Source: Aradus depressus (Eukaryota; Arthropoda; Insecta; Hemiptera; Aradidae). From it: 64,000 nucleotides of DNA. The stretch spans positions 16,210,027 through 16,274,026 of the forward strand of contig OY759221.1 of assembly GCA_963662175.1 (NCBI GenBank), written 5' to 3'. Positions 1 through 56,815 of the stretch are shown here, in pieces (the first letter of the stretch is position 1; every line of letters begins with the position of its first letter). A program made the translations under genes and the position numbers. The notes under the pieces were generated by a model, which was not told the origin of the DNA, ran no database searches, and saw only the letters and a program-made list of their open reading frames with translations.

Positions 1-115
1 TAATGTATCGAAACGAAATTTTATATGTGTATCCAGAATTTCATAACGACGATATATCGATTTTCAGCTGAATCGGCCAAAGGGACTTGACCGTCCCTAT
101 CCATGATATTTTAAA
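1..115. repeat. Repeat B fragment
   Basis: The text about a tATCG-ACGAAATTTTATATGTG stretch followed by TTTTCAGCTGAATCGGCCAAAGGGA recurs at about 36.1-36.3, 43.9-44.2 and 52.3-52.7 kb. It is a non-coding piece of the most abundant dispersed unit in the window. Class unknown. Confidence 0.6.
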
Positions 116-277
116 TTTTTAAAGTTTTTAGATTGTTATTATTATAAAATTATTTAGTTTCCATTCAAAAATTTTTTAATTTTTTATCAGGTATGGTTAT
201 TTCAAAAATTGTTTAACTTTTTACAACAATATATTTATCTTTGTTGCCTTTATATTATATTAAGGATGGTTTCTTTT

Positions 278-323
278 GTAGACTGCCTGATGATGAGGGT
301 AACCTCGAAAGCCGGCTAGCTAC
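278..323 (+). ncRNA. Hammerhead-ribozyme-like motif 1
   Basis: CTGATGA at 287-293 is followed by T, then stem II GAGG-GTAA-CCTC, then GAA at 306-308. Stem III is the self-complementary AGCCGGCT, and the putative cleavage position is the A after its final T. Flanking GC/GC and GTA/TAC (278-280 with 321-323) can form stem I with a bulge. The conserved core order CTGATGA / stem II / GAAA / stem III / UH / stem I is that of a type I hammerhead. A very short palindromic stem III is known for hammerheads carried by Penelope-like elements and retrozymes. No reverse transcriptase is seen nearby. Cleavage is inferred, not shown. Confidence 0.6.
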
Positions 324-1017
324 TTCTAATAAAAATCTGTGAGAGGTCATACTACATTTTATTTGACAACATGTGAAATAATCACTTTTTACTACATCAG
401 CCATCTTCATATTAATTTCTATTAGTTTATTTATTTTTTTTCTCTAATTTCCCATAGATGAAGGGGTCTGAAGAGTTAGTGTTGGTAAACTGTACCATAG
501 TTCGCTCTAACAAGCAGTCAAGTGGACCCATAACAGAAACTAGATTTGGTAAACCACCAACTAATTCTATTAGCAGACTCTGGTGGTATAACTTCTAATT
601 TGTGCCTATTATAGAGGGTACTGGACCAAGTTCTAACTAGGCTGTCCTTACAAACTCCCCAGACATGTCCTGTGTGTCCTCCATGTCCTGGGAGTCTTGG
701 CGTCGCCCCACAAAGTCCTGGTAACAAGTTATTGAGAGGGGGGGGCTCCTCCCCTTTAGAATTCAGTTTCCTTCCCCCTCATCCTTTTAGAAAGGAATTT
801 AATTTCCTTGGAGGCTGGATCTTTTGGCAATGTTGACAACATCACCACCAGGCACGTTCTTCTTACGTTGTCGCCAAATTTCAGTATTCACATTCTTTTT
901 TTCTCTCAATTTTCCTTGTTGATCTTGGTGTACAAAATTCACAAATTGGGAATAGTTTAACAAATTTAATTTCCTTGTGAAAAAGGAACTTTTTTCTTTA
1001 GATCCTTCTCAACTATA
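324..1017. other. No gene seen; AT-rich unique DNA
   Basis: The stretch just after the hammerhead (AATCTGTGAGAGGTC, then TTATTTGACAAC) is shared with 48.73-48.78 kb, so the hammerhead belongs to a dispersed element. The rest shows no coding pattern, tRNA or tandem repeat that I can support. Confidence 0.5.
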
Positions 1018-9314: not shown

Positions 9315-9366
9315 TCCAACCAGAACTGATTTTCAACGCAAATGCGTCATCATCAGTGGCACATCT
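9315..9366 (-). ncRNA. Hammerhead-ribozyme-like motif 2
   Basis: On the minus strand: GTGCCA, CTGATGA (9356-9350), T, stem II GACGC-ATTT-GCGTT, GAA, stem III AA-TCAG-TT, cleavage-position C, then TGGT pairing with GCCA as stem I. All invariant core positions are present and stem II is five pairs. It sits just downstream of the dead LINE but on the other strand, so I treat it as a separate insertion. Confidence 0.6.
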
Positions 9367-11437: not shown

Positions 11438-11659
11438 GCCTTCTCCTCAACCATCTATATTCATAGTAAGTTTTCTTCTTGTTCATCAATGTGTATATGT
11501 ATGTGTGTGTATATGGATGTATAGTTATGTATATATGTATTTATGTGGATATGTGTATGTTGTGAGTGTATATTTATGTACCTATATATAAAATTTTAAT
11601 CGATCACTCATTATATTTTTCCAATCTTGATTCCCCCATGTTTGTCTTGTTTTTGTTAG

Positions 11660-11696
11660 GCCCTGATGATGATATGAAATATATCGAAACGTTGGC
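11660..11696 (+). ncRNA. Hammerhead-ribozyme-like motif 3
   Basis: Stem I GCC, CTGATGA (11663-11669), T, stem II GATAT-GAAAT-ATATC, GAA, stem III ACGT (self-complementary), position U, then GGC closing stem I. Thirty bases further on is TGACTGACCCTCAATACCCCC, also found 290 bp after motif 4 (50.24 kb). That ties the two motifs to one element family. Confidence 0.6.
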
Positions 11697-11699
11697 ATT

Positions 11700-12265
11700 T
11701 GAATAGTGTTTTCATCATTGACTGACCCTCAATACCCCCAGAATTTTAAATTTAGAAATAATATTAACAGATTGGAAGTCTTCATAAACTACATCATGGA
11801 TTACACATCAAATATCCAATGGGAACAGACAGACAGCCTGTTATAAACGTTCCATATTGCGGTCTTGAAGGGAAAACCAAAAAAAAAACAAAAAAAGCGA
11901 AAAAAACTGTAGGAAACCTGATTGAGGAGTGATTGATGGGATGTGTCTGTTGGGACTGGAGCTGTCAGTAACAGATTGGAGATCGCGAGACGCCGCGGTG
12001 CTCTCAGCCTCCCAGCCCCTTGCCTGTTTACCAACAGTAGATTTTTGGAAATGGGCCAGTCCTGGGGTACATCTGTCACGCCCTTCACACTTGGCTCATG
12101 CAATTCATTTGTGCCATGTCTAATTGAATACATTGCTTTCTATACAAGCAAACATTCATCCTTCTTCTCTATAAGACAGACTACTATACTCATAGTAATA
12201 ATAATCAAAGGGGTTAGTTCCACTAGTAAATATATTACTGTTTTTATAACTTTCAGTGGGAACCG
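11700..12265. other. No gene recognised
   Basis: Overlapping frames of 64 to 123 codons occur on both strands here, which reflects locally raised G+C at 11.93-12.12 kb. None shows a recognisable motif. The G+C-rich patch could be an old coding relic, but I cannot identify it. Confidence 0.35.
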
Positions 12266-12269
12266 TCGT

Positions 12270-12441
12270 CACTGGCTACTGGTCGAGTACTGTGAGCGAG
12301 CGCTTTCGATGTGAAGACATCATCTTCAAGAATTCTGAGAATGATGTACTCAATTAACTACTACTACTCATTAACAGTGGCTTGAAGATGATGTCTTCAC
12401 ATCGAAAGTGCTCGCCCACAATACTCGACCAGCAGCCAGTG
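12270..12441. repeat. Hairpin, 61-bp arms, 50-bp loop
   Basis: 12270-12330 and 12381-12441 pair over 61 bp with four mismatches, several of them compatible with G:U pairs in RNA. Arms begin CACTGGCT and end CATCTTCAAG. The size suits a foldback MITE or a hairpin-RNA precursor. Confidence 0.9.
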
Positions 12442-18489: not shown

Positions 18490-18957
18490 GATCCCTGCCT
18501 CCAATCAAGTTCGCTACCTTGGGTTCTATCTAGACCAACGACTGACATGGAACCCCCCATACACGACTAAAACGAGCTCCTCTATCGACTGCTTAGCAGA
18601 CAATCCAAACTAACTAAAAACAAATTGACCATTTACAAGACAATAATAACCCCTATATGGACCTTCGGACTTGAATTATGGGGTTGTGCTAAGCCATCTA
18701 ACATCAAGCGTATCCAGTCCTTCCAATCCAAAGTCCTAAGAACAATTGTCGATGCACCCTTCTATGTGTCCAACCTTACCCTCCATAATGACCTTAAAAT
18801 CCCTTTTGCTATTGACCTCATCAAGTCCCGCTTATCCAAATTCCACTCTAACCTTTCTTCCCACGTCAATCCAGTTGCTCGACTCTTGTCAATTCATTCC
18901 CATCCAGATAATCCCCCCCAAGACTGAGGTGGCGCTGGCCGAGAGACCTGCTACTGT
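18490..18957 (+). pseudogene. Jockey-like LINE ORF2 C-terminus
   Basis: Reads QVRYLGFYLDQRLTWNP; after a frameshift near 18565, LLSRQSKLTKNKLTIYKTII, then TPIWTFGLELWG, SNIKRIQSFQSKVLRTI, DAPFYVSNLTLHNDLKIPF; after another shift, LRWRWPRDLLL and stop. This is the region after the reverse transcriptase fingers/palm that is conserved in Jockey elements (YLG-x-x-LD-x-x-L-T-W ... LW-G ... NAP-WYV). Homologous fragments lie at 32.3-33.0 and 45.3-45.8 kb. Two frameshifts; 5'-truncated immediately after MITE-D. Confidence 0.9.
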
Positions 18958-32326: not shown

Positions 32327-32985
32327 TCAATCCACTAGTAGGTTTCGAGGCCATTGCCGCCTCAGTCTCCAAACATGAACATTAGGAAGGGTTCTTGTGG
32401 CAAGTTTGCAGACTAAAGGATTAGGGTGAAAGGAAAGGGTAGAGTGGAATTTTCTGTAGCGAGATTTAATTAGATCCCTTACAAAGGGAATCTGCAGGTC
32501 ATTGTGAAGGATAGCATTTGAGACGTAGAATGGAGCGATTGTGATTATACGAAGGATACGGGATTGTAGGGTTTGGATTCTATAAGAATTCGAAGGTTCA
32601 GTTGAGCTCCAGAGTTCAGCTCCATACATACGCCCTTATTGGTTGTAAATGAGTCTTTTATTACTTAATGTAAGTTTCGATCTGTTGTCTAAAAGTCGTA
32701 ATAAGAGTTTGTGTCGTCGATTAAGTTCTTGTTTTTTAAGTCTAGTATGAGGATTCCATGTCAGGCGTCTGTAAATAAATAATCCAAGGTAGCGGACGCG
32801 GGAAGGAGTGTGTTATAGTGACAGGAGGACATGTTGCACGACGCAGGGTGAAGGTGATGTGTGTACAGTTCTTATTGTTGTCCTTGATCCTCCACCTGCG
32901 GAACCATGTCTCAAGGGATGAAAGATGTTCCTGAAGGGAATCGGAAGCTTTTTATGGATCACTGTCTGAGGAAAGGTATAAAAAT
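32327..32985 (-). pseudogene. Jockey-like LINE ORF2 C-terminus
   Basis: Minus strand: ASDSLQEHLSSLETWFRRWR, IKDNNKNCTHITFTLRRATC, then a frameshift, VRYLGLFIYRRLTWNPHTRL, LLLRLLDNRSKLTLSNKRL, one stop, MYGAELWSSTEPSNSYRIQT, LQSRILRIITIAPFYVSNAI, and a terminal VWRLRRQWPRNLLVD. Same family as 18.5 and 45.3 kb; this is the longest of the three and reaches back to the W-F-x-x-W-R-I-K region. One stop and one frameshift. 5' junction near 32985. Confidence 0.92.
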
Positions 32986-48677: not shown

Positions 48678-48704
48678 ATTTAATTAGGTTAATTCAAAAA
48701 ATTT

Positions 48705-48785
48705 TATTTATCAGACTGCCTGATGATGAGAGCAATCTGTGAGAGGTCAGACTACATCTTATTTGACAACCTGTGAGACACCTAT
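48705..48785 (+). ncRNA. Decayed hammerhead-like motif
   Basis: CTGCCTGATGATGAGAGCAA shares the left part of motif 1 and then joins AATCTGTGAGAGGTC, so the GAAA and stem III are deleted. Homologous to 278-400 but not functional. Confidence 0.6.
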
Positions 48786-49945: not shown

Positions 49946-49998
49946 GTCACCTGATGAAGGGACGTAAGAACGTCTCGAAATGTCGTCCTGAAAAAGAC
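49946..49998 (+). ncRNA. Hammerhead-ribozyme-like motif 4
   Basis: CTGATGA (49951-49957), A, stem II GGGACGT-AAGA-ACGTCTC (seven pairs including one G:U), GAA, stem III ATGT, cleavage-position C giving the favoured GUC, then GT pairing with AC, and a distal GTC/GAC helix. The strongest stem II in the window. Confidence 0.65.
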
Positions 49999-56011: not shown

Positions 56012-56074
56012 ATACTTTTTTTTTTTTTTAGAAATTTCTATTATATTATTTCACTATATTATGGTTCCAATGTA

Positions 56075-56116
56075 GATGGCCTGATGATGGAGAAACCTAG
56101 AAAGCCAGCTAGCATC
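56075..56116 (+). ncRNA. Hammerhead-ribozyme-like motif 5
   Basis: GAT-G-GC, CTGATGA (56081-56087), weak stem II TGG-AGAAA-CCTA, GAA, stem III AGCCAGCT, A, then GC-ATC, which pairs with GC and GAT as stem I. Compared with motif 1, stem I keeps pairing although its bases differ (GTA/TAC there, GAT/ATC here). Confidence 0.6.
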
Positions 56117-56815
56117 CAGTAATAAACTTTTTTTCTCTTTCTTAGTCAAATAGAAACTTTCACACGAAAGAATATGAGTATCTTGATATAATTCTGCAAA
56201 TAGGAAATAATCAATCAATACTAGACTGAAGAACTGACAATGCGTGCTCATCAAGTTTAAATTGATGTCTCTCCTAATTTGTAATTTAAATGTTAGAGAC
56301 AGTCCCTTCCTCCGTTTCTCCTTCCAAAGAACATTTACATAATCTTCATTTGGGTACCAGGAAACACTTTAATGAAACATGATAGCGCACCCAGCTCTAG
56401 GCGCTGTCTGTTGGCTGCTATATTAATTAAAACTTGAGGCGCGAAAAAATGTGATGAGAAAAATAATTTAAAAAAGATGTCTATGAATCATCGGCTATAT
56501 ACTTCCCCAGTACAAAAATATCAATTACGTCTTCACTCTCTCTCAGTGCCGGATTTATATACCTATTTTTCAAGTATAGGCATTTTTTTCATGTATAAAT
56601 ATTTATAAAACTAATATTAATAATAATAATAATAATAGCCTTTTTATTTGTTTCCCAAGAATTTAAAACTTTTATTCGGAATTAAATAATTAATGTTTGT
56701 GTGGTCTACCATAAGGAAAATTCAAATGAATGGAAACAACTTATATACTTAAAATATAAATTTCAAAAGAGATAAAAACTTATAAATTTAAGAAGAAAAA
56801 CAACGTCTTATATAG
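56117..56815. other. No gene recognised
   Basis: AT-rich sequence with a short AAT microsatellite at 56.61 kb. Frames present are not protein-like. Confidence 0.45.

Follow-up and report, generated by a model that had tools for sequence, protein, structure and literature searches.

The beginning of the window, that is, of the whole 64,000-nucleotide stretch of Aradus depressus DNA analyzed here, carries a motif resembling a hammerhead ribozyme, and raises the question of whether it is a ribozyme core at all and which kind of element brought it there. Upon direct inspection of the sequence, the letters previously proposed from the sequence alone (the sequence-only reading) were found at 278..323 of the forward strand, on which coordinates lie unless a minus sign is given. 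GTAG (278-281) forms the outer strand of stem I and is followed by the CTGATGA core (287-293), stem II GAGG/CCTC (295-298/303-306; 295-306 with its loop), GAAA (307-310) and a palindromic stem III, AGCCGGCT (310-317). The cut is predicted after A318, at 318/319, where GCTAC (319-323) begins, and stem I of the predicted minimal type I hammerhead would consist of GTA..GC and GC-TAC. The type I layout is present, with its CTGATGA core, stem II, GAAA and a stem I opening 5′ and 3′. Helix III is minimal and, in this motif, palindromic (AGCCGGCT), so that two RNAs could pair there; by itself the palindrome allows no hairpin stem with a proper loop. The central C-G pair of stem III is retained in 81 of 88 aligned copies from the same genome.

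The exact pattern CTGATGAN{3,25}GAAAGCCNGCTAGC was searched in the genome of this insect (697.7 Mb, 74 contigs). It matches 3,829 times (1,886 + 1,943), the reversed-pattern control giving 0 matches, which marks the core at 278-323 as genuine rather than a chance occurrence. Within the window, the search CTGATGAN{3,25}GAAA gave 5 matches against 1.1 expected (at least five in 2 of 100 shuffles), among them the present motif (motif 1) and a second one at 56075-56116 (motif 5). No match in the window reached Rfam's own cut-offs, and none of the 36 matches obtained at E ≤ 10 is a hammerhead, a silence that we ascribe to the missing stem III.

The sequence-only reading had argued for RNA folding from a compensated change between motifs 1 and 5 (GTA/TAC versus GAT/ATC). 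The positions compared are not homologous, the 5′ strand being shifted in register: for outer stem I, motif 1 uses letters 1-3 of GTAGACTGC and motif 5 uses letters 4-6 of GTAGATGGC. With a loose pattern, 91 motif copies were gathered from fetched genomic loci (named L001 onwards) and the window, and 88 of them entered a covariation table; L025 (+), L028 (-) and window 56081 were excluded, as their letters were out of register. When these genomic copies were aligned, no excess of compensated substitutions appeared, which removes covariation as an argument: a single cell is altered on both sides in ten pairs by 88 copies, a comparison of low power because most copies are dead, and dead copies are weak material for detecting such substitutions. 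Pairing at the ten pairs is seen in 78 to 88 of the 88 copies, depending on the helix position. Among the 33 copies with GTAG upstream, 29 have TAC at most 7 nt past the GC of the cut site, as do 41 of the 58 copies without it. The support for the putative ribozyme lies in conservation and element context, not in compensation. A chance look-alike within an A+T-rich repeat, for which the lack of an Rfam match and of compensatory changes might speak, is scarcely credible, as the core, stem II and GAAA are retained across differing subfamilies (in copies collected by a loose version of the pattern) and the motif is tied to the 3′ ends of Penelope-like elements (PLEs), as for published PLE hammerheads.

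The motif lies in a 5′-truncated PLE 3′ end (~85..414), in the unspliced form and with a type A end and tail. When L009:8161-9010 was compared with the window by blastn, 77.7% identity was obtained over 85-380, which is only the last part of the PLE, and the tail letters of the window copy reach ~414. Queries made of 134-nt 3′ ends gave no match in L059 (1,101 bases, upstream to window base 74), and by eye the window copy has neither a second arm nor a clear target duplication. It is a dead, 5′-truncated, unspliced fragment. That no GIY-YIG or RT ORF is visible here, as stated earlier, is true for this copy and is explained by the 5′ truncation.

Longer copies with this 3′ end occur elsewhere in the genome. 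A 630-aa open frame occupies L015:718-2610; its last 469 residues contain RVT_1 (2.3e-11) and GIY-YIG (2.1e-6) domains, and the hammerhead, at L015:2755, begins about 150 nt past the stop codon of this frame. Both domains are likewise present in L036, with a hammerhead downstream, and in L009 a GIY-YIG frame (PF01541, 2.9e-7) stops about 150 nt upstream of the hammerhead. RT and GIY-YIG in one frame, the arrangement expected of a PLE, are found in L015 and L036 and are absent from the window copy; the target duplication, inverted terminal copies and optional tail of PLEs are found in 30 genomic pairs. By their domain content, the longer copies tie the same 3′ end to an RT and GIY-YIG frame, and the element is therefore classed as Penelope-like. 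The PLE protein search scored 7,995 candidates and gave 674 relatives, the best of them about 40% identical. Ten of the best 120 of these 674 carry an organism name (7 insects, 2 flatworms and 1 bacterial MAG), and the insects among the matches listed are Phthorimaea, Cacopsylla (twice), Schistocerca, Onthophagus, Cyamophila and Coccinella. Viral contigs contained 0 relatives, the single match in a bacterial record was read as chance, and a search by sequence returned no matching solved structure for the L015 protein.

The Penelope-like reading proposed earlier is backed by the 3,829 exact genome copies and by the PLE copies sharing this 3′ end, and the predicted ribozyme at 278-323 belongs to a known class, the minimal type I hammerheads of PLEs that lack stem III. 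Such hammerheads were reportedly described by Cervera & de la Pena in 2014 and by Lunse, Weinberg & Breaker in 2017. According to the accessible part of PMC7761336, PLE minimal hammerheads share with the present one the CUGAUGA..GAAA core, a lost or minimal helix III, thousands of dispersed copies, a location in the PLE pseudo-LTR (pLTR) and a proposed action as dimers; they differ in that here an intron ends within stem I. We consider it highly probable that 278-323 is a minimal hammerhead in the 3′ end, of pseudo-LTR type, of a GIY-YIG-bearing PLE, the insertion and dimer proposals given below being included in this judgement. For the source element, a tandem pLTR-ORF-pLTR arrangement is assumed; direct pLTRs flanking the frame were recognised in none of the 91 copies in the fetched loci.

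The sequence-only reading had also mentioned retrozymes, small non-autonomous circular RNA elements that contain a hammerhead and are mobilised by others; the inverted pairs would then be derived arrays. A hammerhead in thousands of short dispersed copies would suit them, and animal non-LTR retrozymes resemble the present copies in their type I hammerhead, dispersed repeats and low G+C content (available sections of PMC7229834). Nevertheless, the element that ends 3′ in this motif itself encodes RT and GIY-YIG, whereas animal retrozymes are, in the same sections, non-autonomous tandem monomers, and the short, minimal stem III is unlike that of canonical ones. No tandem, non-coding monomers of ~170-400 nt turned up among the 100 exact-pattern places listed, of which 0 have a same-strand neighbor within 2 kb, or in the fetched loci, where only L023, L038 and L041 contain two copies on one strand (0.3-2.4 kb from each other), and these differ in their letters. 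We regard a retrozyme as very improbable.

The feature that sets this hammerhead apart is an intron. In the window copy, a GT-AG intron of 91 nt (GTATGG...TTTTGTAG; 191..281) is present that is absent from spliced copies elsewhere. GTAG (278-281) serves both as its 3′ splice site and as the outer strand of stem I of the hammerhead; this strand is therefore lost upon splicing. Two forms are found upstream of the core, ..TTATCAG/GTATG...TTTTGTAG/ACTGC-CTGATGA and ..TTATCAG/ACTGC-CTGATGA (slashes mark the splice boundaries): the intron end directly precedes the ribozyme in 33 of the 91 copies and the exon end in 37, the rest having other letters. The unspliced L036 and the spliced L014, L017 and L057 are identical in the aligned stretch except for an exact 75-nt GT..AG gap, and the same intron gap, with few differences, separates L055 from L035 and L050 in another subfamily. 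A CAG/GTAT donor, defining an intron of 75-116 nt, was found in 16 of the 33 GTAG copies; the script found none in 17, some of whose arms end inside the intron. The exact pattern of the spliced form occurs 1,309 times genome-wide, with 0 matches for its control. Both the GT-AG ends and the exact removal in spliced copies are those of a spliceosomal intron. As copies with and without the intron are otherwise identical, the alignments indicate that the PLE template is sense RNA in either splice state. An alternative is that a spliced RNA, once reverse transcribed, founded a separate intron-less lineage, the intron-less copies then not being splicing products themselves; this is quite unlikely, since at least two subfamilies (those of the two comparisons above) hold both forms, identical or nearly so around the gap. 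Penelope itself is said to contain an intron, in work of Arkhipova from 2003.

Two 3′ ends recur, B (..CCTGYGA, which in the window copy reads ..CATGTGA, to 376) and A (..CATATTA), and the tail of that copy (377..414) is the stretch separating them. As a rule, the tail is found on one of the two arms of head-to-head insertions. When neighbors within 2 kb were counted by eye, 100 exact-pattern places listed gave 20 (-,+), 1 (+,-) and 0 same-strand arrangements, and 100 spliced-pattern places listed gave 22, 0 and 0, respectively. The fetched loci contain 30 (-,+) pairs, of which 9 (L049-L057) had been chosen because they were already pairs. In 20 of the 30 pairs, the 30-letter flanks on the two sides share a stretch of at least 8 letters, as shuffled flank pairs do in 5.3% of cases. 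One A arm and one B arm were assigned by script, with B loosely matched, in 27 of the 30; of the exceptions, two (L029 and L049) came out as B/B and one (L056) was not assignable, although the right arm of L029 continues into the tail by blastn. Twenty extra sites were picked as unpaired exact spliced places, and by eye 8 of them have a second arm: L062, L068 and L077 are A/B, L078 is probably A/B, L070 is B/B, and one arm is cut short in L069, L075 and L080. With end types assigned by the author and L029 taken as A, the tail arm is longer in 15, shorter in 7 and similar in 6 of 28 pairs, which is not significant. The one (+,-) neighbor pair counted above for the exact-pattern places is L058:532-721; it is tail to tail, its two copies pointing towards each other in an inverted repeat.

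We determined the splice state of each arm, in genomic loci since the window copy has no second arm, through its score against intron-end and exon-end panels drawn from other loci. Both arms are unspliced in 11 and spliced in 18 of 34 pairs; 2 pairs are discordant and 3 unclear. When four pairs that had been found via a spliced site (3 spliced, 1 unclear) are left out, 26 of the 28 called pairs have both arms in the same state, as against 51% under independent draws (binomial 2.5e-6; permutation 0 of 200,000). The discordant calls are L001 and L033. In L001, intron letters follow the exon end in the left arm (TTATCAG/GTATGTTTAATC) up to a deletion, so this arm is unspliced, as is its partner; the arms of L033 are only 29 bp apart and are uninformative. 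In L046, called spliced on both sides by script, the left arm is uninformative by eye, and a stricter concordance is 25 of 27. On this concordance, both arms derive from one RNA, or one arm was copied from the other; the shared splice state points to one RNA per insertion.

Two different RNAs, dimerised through the palindromic stem III and each templating one arm, would account for two end points per insertion and for the palindrome, whose central pair is kept as noted above. Such a dimer is disfavoured as the origin of the inverted pairs by the splice-state concordance, and we find it unlikely; the argument does not extend to a dimer of alike-spliced RNAs from one locus. Self-priming, in which the first cDNA folds back and copies itself into the inverted arm, is a real though doubtful possibility. 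It predicts arms of shared splice state and fits with their being usually alike (median identity 93% within pairs, 79% between pairs). Partner arms are the joint nearest copy in only 14 of 30 pairs, a low figure that we attribute to near-identical copies within subfamilies and to decay of old pairs. Self-priming has also been argued from junction palindromes, there with an antisense template (accessible part of PMC3846280). A copied-back arm, however, should carry the tail too, whereas one arm lacks it in 27 of 30 pairs, and the spliced copies indicate a sense template. Two starts on one RNA seem likelier than copy-back, because one arm has no tail.

With two starts on one RNA as the preferred reading, insertion might proceed as follows. 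A sense RNA, spliced or unspliced, would reach the target uncleaved, since copies extend across the cut site. Priming would then occur from both nicked strands of the target on this same RNA, one start lying at A and one at B, and the joining of the two resulting cDNAs would give the head-to-head pair. By analogy with the published class, the ribozyme would be active chiefly in dimers paired at the palindromic AGCCGGCT, possibly with help from the element's protein, and would serve to process multimeric transcripts.

The exon end TTATCAG (184..190) is complementary to all seven letters of the CTGATGA core, with one G-U pair, and in the window copy the predicted probability of this pairing is 0.92. 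Where the donor is CAG and the sequence A+T-rich, such complementarity would arise by chance, by our own estimate, in about 5% of cases. When the fold takes in the exon, the mean predicted pairing of core and exon end is 0.83 in 18 unspliced copies and 0.72 in 33 spliced ones. Freeing the core is predicted to require 7.4 kcal/mol with the exon and 5.1 without it in the unspliced RNA (18 copies), and 5.7 and 4.4 kcal/mol in the spliced RNA (32 copies), a predicted masking of about 1.3-2.2 kcal/mol in both splice states; 16 of 90 shuffles reach the unspliced median. In monomers, folding predicts a paired rather than a free core. With 14 nt upstream included, the dimer fold gap has a median of 1.7 in unspliced (28) and 12.6 in spliced (29) copies, 57 of the 91 being usable; shuffled exon letters give 1.3, and 12.6 is reached in 0 of 145. 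With 40 nt upstream, five copies gave mixed values (unspliced 9.5, 5.9 and 1.4; spliced 13.8 and 13.0). The idea that splicing switches the ribozyme off was discarded: when the exon is present, the core of the unspliced RNA is likewise predicted to pair with the exon end. Constancy of TTATCAG was also dropped as evidence, as the 40 copies compared were chosen by letters -5 to -1; the unpaired letters -9 and -8 are constant in 36 and 38 of the 40, much as -7 and -6 (38 and 39).

According to these folding predictions, whose controls are weak, the exon end may mask the ribozyme core. More speculatively, and with more doubt than conviction, the core may be a splicing-linked element: TTATCAG(G) would pair with the whole of (C)CTGATGA across the intron, bringing the splice sites together and masking the ribozyme, which would open only in RNAs lacking that exon end or when the element's protein unwinds the helix. 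On this reading, each insertion would also be copied from a single uncleaved RNA, in either splice state, by two priming events at internal points that recur. The hammerhead of PAc, the Anolis Poseidon PLE, does not cleave without protein (available portion of PMC11167929), a behavior that, by analogy, would be compatible with a masked core.

The minimal PLE hammerhead and PLE insertion are already known as kinds. According to that portion of PMC11167929, PAc has GIY-YIG and RT in one frame and a pLTR hammerhead, as here; its tail, like the present one, is the stretch between two RT starts, with both target strands cleaved and extended and mainly uncleaved RNA as template, as we propose. PAc differs in being a tandem locus, none having been found in our fetched loci, and in that its start points in vitro are the same on both strands, while 27 of 30 natural pairs here have one A and one B. 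The Pen elements of Adineta vaga are PLEs with an intron, and their head-to-head inverted pLTRs, with a tail on one side and target duplications (8-10 bp there), agree with the inverted pairs, tail and duplications found here; the accessible text (PMC3846280) proposes intron retention and an antisense self-primed template, a sense one being also possible, whereas the spliced copies here point to sense. In the literature searched, including the accessible parts of PMC11167929, PMC3846280, PMC7229834, PMC7761336, PMC6431247 and PMC12910113, we found no description of an intron end inside stem I, of mixed spliced and unspliced copies or of arm concordance; most subscription papers, two key hammerhead papers included, lay outside this scope.

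The role of PLE hammerheads has been called a mystery (accessible part of PMC7761336), and how PLEs insert and what causes the head-to-head copies is presented as an open question in the available parts of PMC3846280 and PMC11167929. With thousands of copies, some spliced and some not, this genome amounts to a natural experiment on PLE insertion, in which a shared splice state of the arms points to one RNA, spliced copies to a sense template, and A and B ends to two starts. The intron end overlapping stem I provides a concrete test of what PLE ribozymes do.

Further hammerhead-like motifs occur in the window. Motif 5 (core 56081-56087, GAAAGCCAGCTAGC) lies in a diverged PLE 3′ end (56021..56130), with GTAG at 56072-56075 as the presumed 3′ splice site. 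Its relation to motif 1, claimed in the sequence-only reading, stands as regards GAT..CTGATGA..GAAAGCCAGCTAGCATC, but its palindrome, AGCCAGCT, is imperfect, unlike that of motif 1. A third PLE 3′ end copy (48690..48776) is spliced (..TTTATCAG/ACTGC at 48714/48715) and ends at B; its CTGATGA (48720-48726) is present, and GAAA and stem III are deleted, leaving a damaged hammerhead. By eye, the remaining three of the five window matches (9356 -, 11663 + and 49951 +) resemble minimal hammerheads of other families. A second family of minimal, hammerhead-like motifs reads approximately CCA-CTGATGA-tgacg..gcgt-GAAA..TGG and is found at window 9325-9360 (-), L017:4569 (-), L023:4202 (+) and L029:519 (+). 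Another minimal hammerhead-like motif, GCC-CTGATGA-stem II-GAAACGTT-GGC, occupies 11658-11700 (+), and TTTTTGTTAG just before it resembles a 3′ splice site. A CTGATGA-agggacgtaagaacgtctc-GAAA motif occurs at 49948-49990 (+) and at L077:398 (+); in the window, a pyrimidine-rich stretch and CACATAG lie immediately upstream, and intron ends may adjoin hammerheads in more than one family. Long inverted repeats at 12282-12429 and 2392-2491 match miRNA families below cut-offs and are perhaps miniature inverted-repeat elements. By eye, the frames at 18571-18927 (+) and 32327-32635 (-) resemble C-terminal pieces of non-LTR retrotransposon polyproteins.
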